From positions 1 through 27,357 of the IMG/VR virus record IMGVR_UViG_3300031758_000460: 27,357 nt of DNA. The stretch is one strand, 5' to 3'. This DNA is from a virus. The notes under the pieces are model-generated. The model was given only the letters and a program-made list of their open reading frames with translations, ran no database searches and was not told the DNA's origin. A program made the position numbers and the translations under genes. Below, one piece after another: positions 7,101-26,949 of the stretch; within the stretch, counting starts at the first letter, position 1; the number at the start of each line of letters is the position of its first letter.

Positions 7101-10100
7101 CATTCAAGCGTTTGAGGATAGAATTCGTGGACTTGAGTATTATGTTGCATTAACAACATTAGAGAAAGATGCAGCCTCAACAAAGATTCTGGATAACAAT
7201 GGACTTGAGCGTTCAAAGTATGGTATTCTTGTTGATAACTTTACATCAAAAGATTCGCAAGCTACTTTTTCAGATGTGGATTTAGATAATAGAAACTTGA
7301 TTGATGCAGGAAGATTGTATCCAGCTTCTCTAATGAGAACTGTTGAACTGGAGCTTAATACTTCATTGAGCGCCGGCGCAACAAAAGTTGTTGGTGCTGG
7401 TACCAAAAAAGCATTGATGCTTTCATATACTACTTCTGAATTTGCAAAACAACCTTATGCAACAAAATCAATGGCAGTTGCCGATGCAACTTTTGCCAAC
7501 TTCAAAGGTAAAACAAAATTATTCCCAGAATTTACTGGAGATGTTGATACCGATTCTACAGCAAGAGTTACATTAAATTCTGTTCAAGGTATTGATAATG
7601 CCTTCAATTTTATCAATAGTACACTTAAGTATGTTGCTGATAATAATAAACAATGGGCCGATGATAAAGATAGTCCTTTCGCACAAATTGCCGATAATAA
7701 ATGGTATAAAACTTTAAAAGAAACTGATTATACTAAACAATCAACCGTGCATTTGGGCGGTCGCACTTTTGGTGTCGTTGCGGCCGTTAATGACAACACA
7801 TATTTGACCAAGGGCGCGGAACTAAATCAGAAACAAATTACTACTTCAACTTCACAGGTAGATGTAGGAACTTTTGTTACAGACTTAGCTATTCAACCAT
7901 ACATGAAGTCAAAGCAAATTCTTTTTGCTACCGATGGAATGAGGCCTTCAACAGTCATGTATTCTTTCTTTGATAATACTGATGTTAACAAATACATTGT
8001 AGTACCAAACAAAGTTACATTGAGTGCTAATACAACTTTGATTTCTGGAGAATCTGTTCTTATAGCAAATACTGTTGGTGATTTGGCTGCTAACTTGGCA
8101 AGTTTATTGGCTGGCGGTACATCTTATTCTGCGGCGTTTGTTGTAGTAAGTGAGCCTGGTTCAGCTAATGTTTCTATTATTAACGAAACTGGTAAACCAC
8201 TTTCTAGTAAATATGTCTACGCTTTAGATAGTGGAAATACATACACAATTTCTTCCGTAACTGACCATCGTTCTGGTGTAACAAGAGGAATTACTGCTAC
8301 AACAATTACTCTTGCGTCCGATGCGCCATCATATAACATAGTTGGAAATACAATTACACTTATTCACTCAACATCTTCATTTGAAGGAGTTGGTGCACAA
8401 TTTGCAGTAACCGCATATGATACTAGCACAAAAGTTGCTACAGTAAGTGGAGCAACTACGTATGTTGGTGGAACATATGTTTATAGTTTTGGCACAAATA
8501 TGTCTAACAAACTTGGACAAGTTGGTGGTGCATTCTATATGCCAAAAGCAACATTCCGTTCTGGCGAAAGAAACTTCCGCGTTACCGAATCTTTTAATAA
8601 CACATATGATGCAGATTCAATTTCATTCTCCGACAAAACATACAATGCGACTGGACTAACAGTAAGCAAAACAACACTCGTTGATACTGTATTGAATGTT
8701 GATGTTGAAAGAAAAATTGTTGGTATACAAACTTCCGATAGACTAGTCGGTTCAGTAGCCGCTGGACAAGAATTATTATCAACATATCAAGTAGGAGGAA
8801 CTGATCCTCTTGCCCAAACATTCTTTGTTGATCCTGTTGTGTATCCACAAGGTTTGTACTTAAGTAGTGTTGATTTATTCTTCAAAGCTAAAGATGATGG
8901 CAATTTGCCAGTGACGCTACAAATTCGTCCCACTGTAAATGGATTTCCATCTTCAGATTACTGGTATCCAGAATCCGTTGTCACCAAGTATCCTTCTCAA
9001 ATCAACGTTTCAGAAACTCCGAGTGTTACTGATTCAACCACATCTACTAATTTTGAATTTAGTTTCCCAGTATATTTAAAACCTGGTCAATATGCGTTAA
9101 TTGTTTTAGCTGATACTCAGGAATATATTGTTTGGGAAGCTGAAAAGGGTGGAACAACTACCAATAATGAATATGTGGATAAACAACCATATATGGGAAC
9201 TTTGTATAAATCACAAAATACCGCAGAATGGACTCCGTTTATTAATGAAGACTTGATGTTTAAATTAAATCGTTGTGTTTTCGCAACGAATAGTACTGCG
9301 ACATATTTCTTGAGAAATCAAGCATTATCAACTAGCACAAACTATGACAAATTAAGATTGATTACGAAACCAATTATACCAGATGCAAAAGTTACATCTT
9401 TGACACATAGCATCGCAACAACTACAATTTCGGGAACAAAAGAAACTTCATATAGAACATTGTCTTCAGGACAAACATATAGCTTCTCTAGTGATGATTT
9501 GTATCAAGTTGGATATCGCAGAAAGAAAATGTTTAATGCGAATGATTTTACATTGAAATTGGAAATGACTACAACAAGTGATGCAGTTTCACCAATATTT
9601 TCAATGGAAGCCGCTTCTGTAAATATATGGGAAAATTATATTGATAATGCAGAAATCAATTCCGAAGATTTTACAATTACTGCAACGGGCAGAGGATATA
9701 GCAACGCAAACGTAATTACAATTACAAGTTCATCTGGCACTGGAGCAAACGCTAATGTGCGGGTTGATGGTAATGGTAATGTTATTGGAATTTACGTAAC
9801 ATCATCAGGATCTGGATACCTAGATAATTTTACTATTTCATATCCAGATACTGGCAATTCATCTACAGTTACATCTAACGCAACTATTGAATTGAATAGT
9901 GAATATGATTCTTCTGGTGGTCCTTGTCTTGCTCGTTATATCACTAAGCCAGTTAAATTGGCTGATGGATATGACGCTGGTGATTTGCGAGTATTCCTTG
10001 GTGCGAACAAACCAGGGTCTTCAGAAGTTTCCGTATTCTATAAGATATTGTCGGATAGTGATGCAACACGATTTAAAGACAGACCTTATGAAAAAATGGT

Positions 10101-21561: not shown

Positions 21562-22875
21562 TTGGCATCTAATCAAGACTTCATTGTAAAGAATGGTTTA
21601 ACCATTGGATCATCGCAAGTGATTGCGGCTAATGGTCGTTGGGTTGGAGCCAATACAGGATTATTTGGTCCTCAAGGACCACAGGGCGCCCAAGGCGCAC
21701 AGGGAACACAAGGCGCACAAGGACCAGCCGGTCCCACTGGACCTCAAGGAGCACAAGGCGCACAAGGAAGTGCTGGACCCACAGGACCGCAGGGTGCTCA
21801 AGGCGCTCAAGGTGTTACTGGAGGAACAGGACCAACGGGACCTCAAGGAGCACAAGGTCCAACTGGAGCAACAGGACCACAAGGCGCACAGGGAACACAA
21901 GGACCCACTGGACCACCAGGAGGAACTGGTGCTCAAGGTCCTACTGGCGCAACAGGACCAACTGGACCGCAAGGAGCAACAGGAACTGCCGCATCAATAT
22001 CTTTAGGTCCAACAACTACTGGGCCAGCGGGTGGAACTTCTGCGGTCACTAATAGCGGAACTAGTGCGGCGGCAGTTTTTAATTTTACTATTCCTAGAGG
22101 TCCACAAGGACCCACTGGCGCAACAGGACCGACTGGACCGCAAGGAGCACAGGGTGCTCAAGGCGCACAGGGCGCCCAAGGAGCAACAGGTCTATTAGCA
22201 AGTAATTCAGTAACATATGGCGGTTATGGCGCTTCAGCGATTAAAAATTCTTACTATGGTATTTTGATGGGAACAACAACATCCCATCTAAATTATATGG
22301 CTGACGGATCTGGTAATGGTGGAATTTATCGTGAAAGTAGTGGTGTTTGGCCGATTTATTATAATGTAACAAATAATTCTGTTGGTATTGGTGGTTCAAC
22401 TACACTATCGGGTTATGCGGAATATGTTAATGGTATAGGAATTGCAAGTAGTAGTTACCGAGCACCTCTTTTTTACGACTCAGACAACACCGGATATTAC
22501 ACAGATCCAGCTAGCACTTCTAATATTAACAATCTTACAATTAATGGTACAGTAAGTGGCGTTCCCAGAAGGGCTGCTACATATTGCAGATGGAATACAA
22601 GCACAGCTACAGTATCGGCTGGCAGTTTTAATGTAACTTCAGTAAGTGTTCCTAGCACAGGTCAACAAACAATAAATTTTTCATCTAGTTTAGGAACTAC
22701 TAATTATTCATATTCATTATCTACAGTTGTATCTGGAAGCGGTTTTAATTCATTTGTTATTGGTGTTGAAAATGTTGCAGATATTACCGCAACATCAATT
22801 TATTGTAGAACATTACTTCATTATTCTTTTACTTGGGGAAATCCAACAAACAATACCTTTGTAGCATTTTTGTGA
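21562..22875 (+). CDS. Collagen-like tail fibre 1 (no S74 chaperone, TTG start)
   Basis: A 437-residue fibre, first of three paralogues. Residues 1-29 are identical in all three ([11 protein letters not shown]...). Two Gly-X-Y tracts follow: 36 triplets at 36-143 and 10 at 180-209, split by a beta linker that ends [11 protein letters not shown]. Next comes a module shared with fibre 2 (GNGGIYRES ... STTLSGY), then [13 protein letters not shown] ... [12 protein letters not shown], usually found ahead of an S74 domain. Here the C-terminus is instead a beta domain (about 340-437) ending NNTFVAFL, with no S74 dyad. The start is TTG: the paralogue alignment puts the initiator exactly there, and AAAGGG lies 10 bases upstream. 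Two small putative assembly genes follow directly. Confidence 0.85.
21667..22188 (+). repeat. Collagen-like Gly-X-Y tracts of fibre 1
   Basis: Codons 36-143 give 36 uninterrupted triplets and codons 180-209 give 10 more. X is mostly Pro or Ala and Y mostly Gln, Thr or Ala; Pro is in Y only once (GPP). The interruption at 144-179 is a short linker typical of phage collagen-like fibres. The low-complexity DNA produces long spurious reading frames on both strands. Confidence 0.92.
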
Positions 22876-22884
22876 GATATTAAT

Positions 22885-23187
22885 ATGATTGAAAATAAAT
22901 TAATTTTACATCCAAATCCAGAAACTGGTAATATTGTTATTTGTATACCTGTTCCCGATTGTGGTTTAACGATAGAACAAATTGCCGCTAAAGATGTTCC
23001 TTATGGGCAACCATATTTAATCATTGATAGAGAAGATTTACCAATTAGAGATACTACTTTTATGGCAGCTTTAGAGGGAGATTTTTCACAACCTCATGGT
23101 GAAGGTCAAAATTGGGGAACAGGATCAATGTATGATGTTGTTGGTTGGAATAATGATGGCACTCCTAAGATTCAATCTAAAGGATAA
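22885..23187 (+). CDS. Putative tail fibre assembly protein
   Basis: A 100-residue protein. It begins MIENKLILHPNPETGNIVI and contains DVPYGQPYLIIDREDLP at 37-53. The 'VPxGxPYxIxDxxDLP, followed by F and A' pattern is one I recall from small proteins encoded next to phage tail-fibre genes and from tail-fibre-assembly families. It starts 9 bases after fibre 1, the collagen fibre that lacks a built-in S74 chaperone, and is followed 5 bases later by the 79-aa gene. A chaperone for fibre 1 is inferred from position. The C-terminus (FSQPHGEGQNWGTGSMYDVV) departs from that pattern and may be a separate small domain. Confidence 0.62.
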   Translation: MIENKLILHPNPETGNIVICIPVPDCGLTIEQIAAKDVPYGQPYLIIDREDLPIRDTTFMAALEGDFSQPHGEGQNWGTGSMYDVVGWNNDGTPKIQSKG

Positions 23188-23192
23188 AATAT

Positions 23193-23432
23193 ATGATTAC
23201 ACTTAATATGAATAAAGTAAAAGATATCTCTCACGAAATAAGAAGAAAAGCAAGAGAGATAGAATTTGAGCCTCTTGATGCAATTATAGCAAAACAAATT
23301 CCTGGACAGAACATTTCTAAAATTGAAGAATCACGCCAGGCTATTAGAGATAAGTATTCACAAATACAAAATGATATTGATTCTGCAAATAATATCAATC
23401 AAATATACAGTATCATTGATAATTTAAAATAA
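23193..23432 (+). CDS. Small helical protein, possible fibre-assembly partner
   Basis: A 79-residue, largely helical protein (ISHEIRRKAREIEFEPLDAI ... SRQAIRDKYSQIQNDID, with residues between). The pattern of an RRxAR helix, EFxPLDxxIA, then an RQAIRDKY helix is one I recall from short proteins downstream of phage tail genes, and it resembles the helical C-terminal parts of some fibre-assembly proteins. It starts 5 bases after the 100-aa gene with AAGGAT in front, so the pair may act as one split assembly factor for fibre 1. An alternative start at 23208 is possible. Function inferred from context only. Confidence 0.62.
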   Translation: MITLNMNKVKDISHEIRRKAREIEFEPLDAIIAKQIPGQNISKIEESRQAIRDKYSQIQNDIDSANNINQIYSIIDNLK

Positions 23433-23439
23433 AAACTAA

Positions 23440-24783
23440 ATGGCATCTAATCAAGACTTTATTGTAAAAAATGGATTGACTATTGGTTCTAGTCAAGTGA
23501 TTGCGGCCAATGGTCGTTGGGTAGGTGCTAACACAGGACTTATTGGTCCTCAAGGAACACAAGGCGCACAGGGTGCTCAAGGCGCAACAGGTCCCCAAGG
23601 AGCACAGGGAGCGACAGGCGGCACTGGTCCCACTGGTCCCCAAGGTGCTCAAGGTGCAACTGGTGGAACTGGTCCCACTGGACCACAAGGAGCACAAGGA
23701 GCACAAGGGCCAGCAGGACCAACTGGTCCGCAAGGCGCACAAGGAACACAGGGCGCACAAGGAAGTGCTGGACCTCCTGGTCCTACTGGAGCACAGGGAC
23801 CAACTGGTGCTCAAGGTCCTACTGGCGCAACAGGACCAACTGGCGCTCAAGGCGCACAAGGCGCACAAGGACCTGCAGGACCAACAGGACCATCTGGAGC
23901 AACAGTTGATGGCACAAACCGAACACTAAACACATTGGGGTTCAGTGGTGTAAGTGGAAATTCTGGGAATGCACCATCAAGTTATCCATACTCATTACAT
24001 CAAAAAGCTGGCGCTTGGACTTCTCCATATCCAGATTTGTCCATTAATTATCATGTGGGCATTTCTATGGGAGCTAATCCAACTTATGAGGGTGTTTCTT
24101 TTTGGGATGATTACTCACACAACACATTAGTTTTTAGAATTAATGGCTCCAGCAATTATTCATACAAATACTATTGGCAATATACAAATGCAAGTGGTTA
24201 TTATTCAGATACGAATAACTGGCATATTCAACCAAATGATTTAAGTACATATGGTGGTACTGCACTACGCGGAACAAGAAATGGTTGGCGCGGTATTCAT
24301 TTTTATGATGGTGGTAATACACCTCATTTAATGTTTGATGGTTCTGCAAATGGCGGAATTTATTATGAAAGTGGTGGTAGATGGGCTTCTTATTACAGCT
24401 ACTCAAATAATTGTTGGGGATTTGGAACTTCAACAACAGCATCAGGGTATTCAGTATATGCAAATGCATCAATTTATGCAACAGGAAATGTTGTTGCAGC
24501 CTCAGACGCAAGACTAAAAGAAAATATTTTACCTATAAAAAATGCATTAGAAAAAACATACAATCTTCGCGGCGTTTACTATAACATGATTGCAGATGAA
24601 AAGAAGAATCAAAAAGTTGGACTAATTGCTCAAGAAGCTATAGAACATTTACCTCAAGTTGTTATGTATGATGATGAAAATGACCAATACGGAATTGATT
24701 ATGGAAATATTACTGCACTTTTGATTGAAGCAATCAAAGAGCTAAAAGATGAAATTGAAGAATTAAAAAAGGAGAAAGCATAA
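23440..24783 (+). CDS. Collagen-like tail fibre 2 with S74 chaperone
   Basis: A 447-residue fibre. The anchor (1-35) equals that of fibre 1 apart from Ile35. One uninterrupted tract of 40 Gly-X-Y triplets spans 36-155. A beta region with many Tyr, Ser, Asn and Trp residues follows (about 156-290), probably the receptor-facing part. Then come the GNGGIYYES ... STTASGY type module shared with fibre 1 and a full S74 domain: Ser355 and Lys360 in [18 protein letters not shown] and a terminal helix. Ser-Lys spacing is intact, so self-cleavage before Ser355 is expected. No clear Shine-Dalgarno precedes the ATG. Its TAA overlaps the next ATG (TAATG). Confidence 0.87.
23545..23904 (+). repeat. Collagen-like Gly-X-Y tract of fibre 2
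   Basis: Codons 36-155 form 40 consecutive Gly-X-Y triplets, mainly GAQ, GPQ, GPT and GAT. Pro occupies Y only once (GPP). Unlike fibres 1 and 3 there is no interruption. Confidence 0.93.
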
Positions 24784-25214
24784 TGGCTTTAATCAGAGAT
24801 TATGAATTACCAGGAACTGGTGTAACTGTTGCTAATGCATACCATGTAGTGACAAAGGTTGATGTGGAAAAAAGAACACAAGATATTCCTGCGCCTCCAG
24901 ATCCAACAAGACCCGGTGGTTTTACTGTTGGGCATCAAGAAGTTGGTAAAGAACTTTTTTGGAAAGCAGGATATGTTGGAACTATTTCCATTACAATATG
25001 GAAAGACGCACAATCAAGAAATGACGGATTACAACCATTAGGATTTTTAGGTATGCATCCCTCTGATAATAAGTATGGTGCAAAATTATCGCAAGATGTA
25101 AAAAACCATCAACCTAGATTTTTCATTGATGTGGAATCGGAAGATAATTATGTCACGCAAGCGTATGCGTATCTAAAAACAACAGAGTACTATTCAAACT
25201 CAACAGAAGTTTAA
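24783..25214 (+). CDS. Conserved phage hypothetical between two collagen fibres
   Basis: A 143-residue protein with no signal peptide or membrane segment. It starts [20 protein letters not shown], has a central VGTISITIWKDAQSR strand pair, and ends AYLKTTEYYSNSTEV. I recall similar hypotheticals among structural genes of aquatic T4-like phages, but no function is known to me. A strong AAGGAG Shine-Dalgarno lies inside the end of fibre 2, and the ATG overlaps that gene's TAA. It is therefore tightly coupled to fibre 2 and may be an accessory capsid, tail or fibre protein. Other options, such as an assembly factor, cannot be excluded. Confidence 0.68.
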   Translation: MALIRDYELPGTGVTVANAYHVVTKVDVEKRTQDIPAPPDPTRPGGFTVGHQEVGKELFWKAGYVGTISITIWKDAQSRNDGLQPLGFLGMHPSDNKYGAKLSQDVKNHQPRFFIDVESEDNYVTQAYAYLKTTEYYSNSTEV

Positions 25215-25220
25215 TCCTAA

Positions 25221-26468
25221 ATGGCATCTAATCAAGACTTCATCGTAAAGAATGGCCTAACAATAGGTAGTTCTCAAGTAATTGCGGCTAATGGTCGGTG
25301 GGTTGGTGTCAGCACAGGATTAATTGGTCCCACTGGTCCTGCTGGTCCCGCTGGTCCACAAGGCGCACAGGGACCGACTGGTGCTCAAGGGCCCGCTGGA
25401 CCAACTGGCGCACAGGGACCAACTGGCGGTACTGGTCCCACTGGTCCACAGGGCGCTCAAGGACCAGCGGGCGGTACTGGTCCCACTGGACCACAAGGAG
25501 CACAGGGGGCACAAGGAAGTGCTGGACCAACAGGACTTGGTTATTCAGGACTAACATCAACAACTTCTCTTGCAATTGGTACTGGAGCAAAAACATTTAC
25601 TGTTAATCAATCTCAAGGCACCAATGCGTTTGTTGTTGGAGAGTATGTTCGTGCTTTTGGCGCAACTACGACCAATTTTATGGCTGGAAGAATCACAACT
25701 TATACAACAACATCACTTACGATTACTGTTGATTATGTTGGTGGAAGCGGCACATTTGCTAGTTGGACAATTACTGCTACTGGATCAATAGGTCCACAGG
25801 GAGCACAAGGCGCTACAGGACCGCAAGGCGCACAAGGCGCTCAGGGACCAACTGGTGCTCAAGGTGCTACGGGACCGACCGGACCAACAGGACCGTCTGG
25901 TGCAACAATCTTAGGATCAAGCAATACATGGACTGGACAAAACTATTTTCAATCAAATCTAGGAGGAACTTCTGGAAGTATAACTAGTCCACCTTTACAA
26001 GCATACTCAACTGGTAATAACTCTGCTTTTATGTCTTTTCACAAAAGTGCAGTATATGCTGTCAACTTTGGATTAGACTCCGACAACGTATTGCGTATCG
26101 GTGGTTGGTCAGCGTCAGCTAATCGTTGGCAACTTGATATGTCTGGCAACATGACTGTTGCTGGTAACGTAACAGCATCTTCTGATATCAAGTTGAAAGA
26201 GAATATAAAAGTTATTACCGATGCATTGAATAAAATTAAACAAATTCGCGGTGTTACATTTACTAGAAACGACCATGATGATAAAATTAAACTTCATGCG
26301 GGTGTAATTGCACAAGAAGTAGAGGCTGTTTTGCCGGAAGTTGTCTCGGAAGATAATTCAGGAACAAAAAATGTAGCATACGGAAATATGGTTGCTTTAC
26401 TAATTGAAGCAATCAAAGAACAACAAATACAAATTGAAGAATTAAGAGAGATTATTAATGGCCAGTAA
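25221..26468 (+). CDS. Collagen-like tail fibre 3 with S74 chaperone
   Basis: A 415-residue fibre, third paralogue. Residues 1-29 are identical to fibres 1 and 2. Gly-X-Y tracts lie at 36-104 (23 triplets) and 191-229 (13 triplets). Between them is a ~85-residue beta linker ([19 protein letters not shown] ... [17 protein letters not shown]) that I recall as a common insert between collagen tracts in phage fibres. After about 90 residues comes an S74 domain: Ser321 and Lys326 in [18 protein letters not shown] and a terminal helix. The distal part before S74 is short and unlike fibres 1 and 2. The stop falls inside the remnant of a fourth anchor sequence. The Shine-Dalgarno is weak. Confidence 0.87.
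25326..25907 (+). repeat. Collagen-like Gly-X-Y tracts of fibre 3
   Basis: Codons 36-104 (23 triplets, 25326-25532) and 191-229 (13 triplets, 25791-25907) are Gly-X-Y. No triplet has Pro in the Y position. The intervening ~85 codons encode a beta-type linker. Confidence 0.92.
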
Positions 26469-26511
26469 TCAAGACTTCATCGTAAAGAATGTTCTAATAA
26501 AAACTAAATAA
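26458..26511 (+). pseudogene. Remnant of a fourth collagen-fibre N-terminal anchor
   Basis: A 17-codon reading frame encodes [11 protein letters not shown], identical to the first 11 residues of fibres 1-3, then VLIKTK and a stop. A 26-base block at 26466-26491 is identical to the corresponding part of fibre 3's start. The ATG lies inside the end of fibre 3 in another frame, and fibre 3's TAA (26466-26468) falls in its fourth codon. Everything after the anchor (stalk, tip, chaperone) is missing. It is most simply a truncated cassette; translation of a 17-aa peptide by coupling is possible but unproven. Confidence 0.8.
26503..26510 (+). promoter_or_regulatory. Weak late-promoter-like box (ACTAAATA)
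   Basis: ACTAAATA has one mismatch to NATAAATA and lies 34 bases before the 120-aa gene, a spacing like that of the better box at 15930. It overlaps the end of the fibre remnant, so the match may be accidental. Confidence 0.25.
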
Positions 26512-26544: not shown

Positions 26545-26907
26545 ATGGCTATTACATATACCTGGAAAGTCACCAGTCTAAAAACTAAGAATGAAGGTTC
26601 CAATCAAAATGCGGTTGTGCAAACATACTGGCAAAAGATTGGTACTGATGAAAATGGAAACATAGGAACATTTTCTGGCGCAACACCATTCACATCAACA
26701 ACTATGCCAGAAGGAAATGCGTTTGTACCATTTGAAGAACTAACTGAAGAAGTTGTGCTTGAATGGATTAAAGACATTGTTGTTGGGTCTTATGAGCAAC
26801 ACGTTAATGGAAAAATTCAACAGCAAATTGACGAACATGTTAATCCTGTTTCCGAAGCACAAATGCCATGGGCACCAGCATCTAATACAGCACCAACAAT
26901 GCCGTGA
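26545..26907 (+). CDS. Conserved small phage protein, MAITYTW family (hypothetical)
   Basis: A 120-residue protein. It starts MAITYTWKVTSLKTKNEG and has a central TYWQKIGTDENGNIGTFSGA and then PFEELTEEVVLEWIKDIV. I recall this family as a widespread, functionally uncharacterised protein of marine T4-like phages, often near fibre genes and 2OG oxygenases. The C-terminus is Pro/Ala/Met-rich (MPWAPASNTAPTMP). A strong TAGGAGA Shine-Dalgarno lies 8 bases before the ATG. It is cytosolic or virion-associated, with no signal or membrane segment. Function unknown. Confidence 0.75.
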   Translation: MAITYTWKVTSLKTKNEGSNQNAVVQTYWQKIGTDENGNIGTFSGATPFTSTTMPEGNAFVPFEELTEEVVLEWIKDIVVGSYEQHVNGKIQQQIDEHVNPVSEAQMPWAPASNTAPTMP

Positions 26908-26949
26908 TATATATTAGATAGTTTATTAATTCATTATAAGGAGTTTGAC

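Follow-up and report, generated by a model that had tools for sequence, protein, structure and literature searches.

The stub of a fourth collagen-like fibre gene, probably left by deletion, in the tail-fibre array of a freshwater T4-like phage

In this article, I will discuss a short frame at the end of a phage fibre array, at positions 26458-26511 on the plus strand of a 27,357-nucleotide viral sequence (IMG/VR record IMGVR_UViG_3300031758_000460, positions 1 to 27,357, here called the window), which is a genuine gene remnant, or pseudogene, of a collagen-like fibre, ordinary in kind, and which was probably left behind when a fourth fibre gene was deleted. The frame holds 17 codons, ATGGCCAGTAATCAAGACTTCATCGTAAAGAATGTTCTAATAAAAACTAAATAA, its first 34 nt come from a fibre start, and direct reading of the sequence bears out the initial annotation in that the first 11 residues are the N-termini of fibres 1 (21562, with a TTG start), 2 (23440) and 3 (25221). 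The same annotation pointed to a 26-base identity with fibre 3, and the run TAATCAAGACTTCATCGTAAAGAATG at 26466-26491 is indeed an exact copy of 25229-25254 in the fibre 3 start; a 25-mer taken out of the run has matches in the window at the four fibre starts only, with 0-3 mismatches, where shuffles expect 0.00. Likewise, the ATG does lie among fibre 3's last codons in another frame, since it falls inside the last 11 bases of that gene (fibre 3's TAA is 26466-26468), so that 26458-26468 is double-coding and provides both the start of the stub and the C-terminus and stop of fibre 3. The 23 nt beyond the fibre 3 stop (26469-26491) belong to the relic only and are identical at 22 of 23 positions to the fibre-4 start of two relatives, contigs L024 and L011, and they are followed by the 3' breakpoint zone at 26492-26503, TTCTAATAAAAA, which has no match among relatives that would identify a donor for this flank.

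The window is part of a freshwater T4-like phage, with a baseplate-wedge-like PHROG at 12-2798 whose baseplate protein has distant relatives only, among T4-like phages (cyanophage, Sinorhizobium and Stenotrophomonas phage genes). All genes of its tandem fibre array are on the plus strand, beginning with fibre 1 (21562-22875, 437 aa), which combines the anchor and collagen repeats (Pfam Collagen, 2e-20) with a non-S74 tip, and continuing with fibre 2 (23440-24783, 447 aa) and fibre 3 (25221-26468, 415 aa), in both of which the anchor and the collagen repeats are joined to a Peptidase_S74 chaperone, the Pfam Collagen (PF01391) and Peptidase_S74 (PF13884) domains both scoring above cut-off; these are thus collagen-like fibres with a C-terminal Peptidase_S74 chaperone. 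The array is bordered by a 120-aa DUF7936 gene (26545-26907, Pfam). Three small accessory genes stand between the fibres, one of 100 aa (22885-23187) with no match in Pfam or PHROGs and with similar genes after fibres in L021, L005 and L014, one of 79 aa (23193-23432) assigned to PHROG 20196 of unknown function and with similar 82-87-aa genes before fibres in L021, L028 and L014, and one of 143 aa (24783-25214) that is also found beside fibres in L029, L031 and L014. These accessory genes (22885-25214) occur between fibres in differing combinations across the relatives and are possibly fibre chaperones or adaptors. Similarly, only a few types of leader precede the anchors (e.g., TTTTTTAACAAGACTATATAAAAT, CTCAACAGAAGTTTAATTCTAA and the 11-nt overlap), and each has different fibres behind it (L001-L031; in the window at 21562, 23440 and 25221). 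Searches of bacterial genomes found no anchor, and searches of isolated phages found no close relative of the fibres.

Relatives were gathered by scanning IMG/VR viral contigs for the anchor pattern, the fibre-3 ending, the DUF7936 protein and the DNA immediately upstream of its gene. In all eight contigs found with the fibre-3 C-terminal ending, an anchor start overlaps that ending by 11 nt (ATGGCCAGTAA), and in six of the eight the overlapping ATG opens a long fibre of 320-597 aa (L001/L026, L003/L022, L004/L027, L008/L023, L009/L031 and L012/L024, among which the pairs L001/L004 and L003/L008 look like near-copies, with identical fibre lengths and junctions), while the other two belong to the window's own phage and carry the stub. 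The more distant cousins L011 and L018 show the same overlap after the ending EEMRNLINGK, the second fibre of L011 being complete at 731 aa and the frame of L018 reading open for 414 aa up to the point where the contig stops. An intact fibre gene at the equivalent of 26458, the check proposed with the initial annotation, was thus found in the six other contigs with the fibre-3 ending and in L011 and L018 (the latter open-ended). The junction itself is closely shared, for the window and L024, which has a fibre 4 of 597 aa, are identical at 57 of 60 nt before the ATG and at 33 of 34 nt after it.

What the stub has lost can be read against 28 distinct fibres, whose anchors are conserved over about the first 29 residues, with an invariant Gly12. 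The phrase "anchor kept, stalk and tip gone" is right for the stalk and the tip; the anchor, however, is kept only in part, as about 11 of some 29 conserved residues, roughly the first third, remain, and Gly12 and residues 13-29 are gone. With the anchor cut after residue 11 and no stalk or tip, the functional domains are lost, and neither the collagen repeats nor the S74-like LIEAIKEQ C-terminus of the relatives' fibre 4 is present. Lacking all of these, the stub should do nothing, even if it is translated at a low level. RNA folding at the stub is not unusual (z +1.5), and scans for sigma-70 promoters and terminators gave nothing above shuffles. It is highly improbable, to my mind, that the 17 residues are a functional peptide or coupling element kept by selection, for example as a decoy of the fibre anchor. 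The frame does have a start and a stop, translation from the overlap is plausible and the stub is unchanged in three contigs, but it is known from one near-clonal population only, and the identity of three copies that are 99.9% alike says nothing about selection, the more so as the flanking 6.7 kb in L020 is equally unchanged outside one short tract. The peptide is also without anchor residues 12 (the invariant Gly) to 29, and among the 34 distinct anchor starts fetched it is the sole short one, the other complete ones being 235-754 aa long, so that no conserved short anchor frame was seen in diverged relatives outside the window's population. As for the short tract, the window and L020 differ over 6.8 kb by seven substitutions and one indel, all within 26833-26938 (105 bp); this stretch, at the end of the DUF7936 gene, has the look of a short recombination tract.

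The same contigs bear on whether the stub could have arisen in the computer, by the collapse of repeated fibre starts during assembly, an explanation that I consider scarcely credible. Repeated anchors and collagen repeats are difficult to assemble, and contigs do break nearby, L013 and L016 at 24883-24896 and L017/L019 by beginning at 25352. However, the identical junction is found in three contigs of different IMG/VR records, the stub recurring letter for letter in 3300031951_001892 and 3300008114_000525 (L007/L020 and L017/L019), which match the window at 99.9%, and this recurrence within the same phage, in contigs besides the window, makes an assembly error unlikely. A collapse between anchors would also be expected to give a clean anchor, whereas here the anchor breaks off in the middle and unique sequence follows. 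That L013 and L016, both from the same phage, end at 24883-24896 inside the 143-aa gene suggests an assembly branching point and possibly allelic variation downstream.

How the fibre gene was lost is judged here from the 3' end of the stub. Its stop codon lies in frame 33 nt before the DUF7936 ATG, just where fibre 4 stops in L024, L026 and L027, and its last 15 nt agree with the fibre-4 tail of L026 at 12 of 15 positions, a level reached by 0.4% of the ORF tails in the set. The stop overlaps a late-promoter-like element, ACTAAATAAA at 26502-26511 on the plus strand, which in most relatives is conserved closely ahead of the next gene and for which a promoter role is presumed; the T4 late promoter consensus is TATAAATA. 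L021 carries TATAAATA at this spot, though no fibre ends there. The shared stop position counts for less than it first seems to, because the TAAATAAA element itself supplies the TAA, which would be in frame by chance one time in three, and because TAAATAAA is present also where no fibre ends, as in L021. Its resemblance to a T4 late promoter would, in turn, explain why a deletion stopped short of the element. Elsewhere in the window, T4-late-promoter-like [AC]TAAATA motifs are found at 2794, 15930 and 19383, as well as at 26503 here, 13-43 bases before gene starts, and over the whole window such motifs number seven on the plus strand and one on the minus strand. Two candidate sources for the stub's tail were set aside: an exact 20-mer, CTAATAAAAACTAAATAAAT, matches only the same phage and contigs L125 and L126, both of which are without the downstream block (the genes of L125 look unrelated), and these were taken as chance AT-rich matches; and a tail derived from a gene of the 79-aa accessory type was suggested by a 14-base match, AATAAAAACTAAAT, to the fibre 2 leader and found no further support.

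The route that I favour is an in-frame internal deletion. The ancestral fibre 4 would have started within fibre 3's last codons, which it overlapped by 11 nt (ATGGCCAGTAA); its stop was probably the TAA that lies 33 nt ahead of the DUF7936 gene, as in L024 and L026. A deletion of about 300-590 codons would then have removed everything from anchor codon 12 to the last few codons of the gene, so that 11 codons remained at the N-terminal end and about 3-6 at the C-terminal end, together with the stop. No long repeat marks the deletion, which is why illegitimate joining is the probable mechanism, and a deletion in place implies that the 3' end of the ancestral fibre 4 would have read GTTCTAATAAAAACTAAATAAATC. 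Since the C-terminus and stop of fibre 3 and the late-promoter-like element survived, the neighbouring genes should be unaffected.

The alternative route is that fibre 3, or its 3' end, was acquired from a relative with the right-hand crossover falling 34 nt inside the next fibre gene, so that only the start of that gene was imported; I regard this as unlikely, while taking it more seriously than either selection or misassembly. The number, order and tips of the fibres vary between the relatives' arrays, and a block of about 100 nt that runs from fibre 3's 3' end into the fibre-4 start matches L024 at about 97%, while the S74 domain upstream aligns poorly and the downstream genes stand at about 90%, a pattern that fits exchange. 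The sister lineage L021 is, moreover, without any fibre that has the fibre-3 ending: a careful tree of 3.5 kb downstream places the stub lineage beside L021, within a group that holds both states (a basal position of the stub lineage, obtained with FastTree, was dropped because the careful tree places it next to L021), and because even close relatives have strongly differing arrays, the tree does not fix the state of the direct ancestor. However, the high identity of the block may be no more than the result of constraint on the two frames that overlap there, import requires a crossover at a non-homologous point, and an in-frame stop at the fibre-4 stop position is not something that import predicts; it is because of this stop position that deletion is favoured. 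Accordingly, the earlier proposal that a lost fibre gene left its 5' end here is supported by the relatives' fibres at the same site, and its choice of deletion is less secure, because a scar of import is not distinguishable from one of deletion with the donor of the 3' flank not found. A rather doubtful extension is that the block of about 100 bp (about 26395-26491), made up of the fibre C-terminal coiled coil and the next start, serves as a conserved homology island for one-sided exchange or loss of cassettes, in which case the array would be a plug-in system and the stub an empty socket able to accept a new fibre by homologous recombination.

The gain and loss of fibre genes as a general process is well known, and phages of the T4, P2 and Mu types have modular tail-fibre genes with a conserved N-terminus and exchanged tips, broken fibre genes included. 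The array described here resembles them in its conserved virion-binding start, variable tip and recombination-driven gain and loss, but differs in having several whole fibre genes in a row and a stub that represents the deletion of almost the whole gene interior. A second, different loss of the array's end is seen in L014 (reverse strand), where at 7720-7860 almost nothing separates the 143-aa gene from a 68-aa gene, and the DUF7936 gene and any following fibre are missing. A limited literature search found no report of such a stub. Another parallel comes from T4-like pelagimyophages and cyanomyophages, which are described as having a hypervariable host recognition cluster (HRC) with several tail-fibre genes in the structural region, and as carrying collagen repeats in putative receptor-binding proteins of the structural operon (PMC7029224). 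The window's variable fibre array also sits in the structural region of a T4-like phage, as judged from the baseplate-wedge-like PHROG and from arrays that vary among relatives, whereas the islands in the part of that paper drawn on here lie between VrlC and gp14, do not form a tandem array built on a common anchor and include no reported gene stub (PMC7029224). The remnant adds nothing new in principle and is ordinary within this known kind of hypervariable host-recognition region. What it provides is the trace of a fibre lost in a natural phage, set beside the fibre genes that relatives have at that site, and this favours the idea that freshwater T4-like phages gain and lose their host-binding fibres as whole cassettes.
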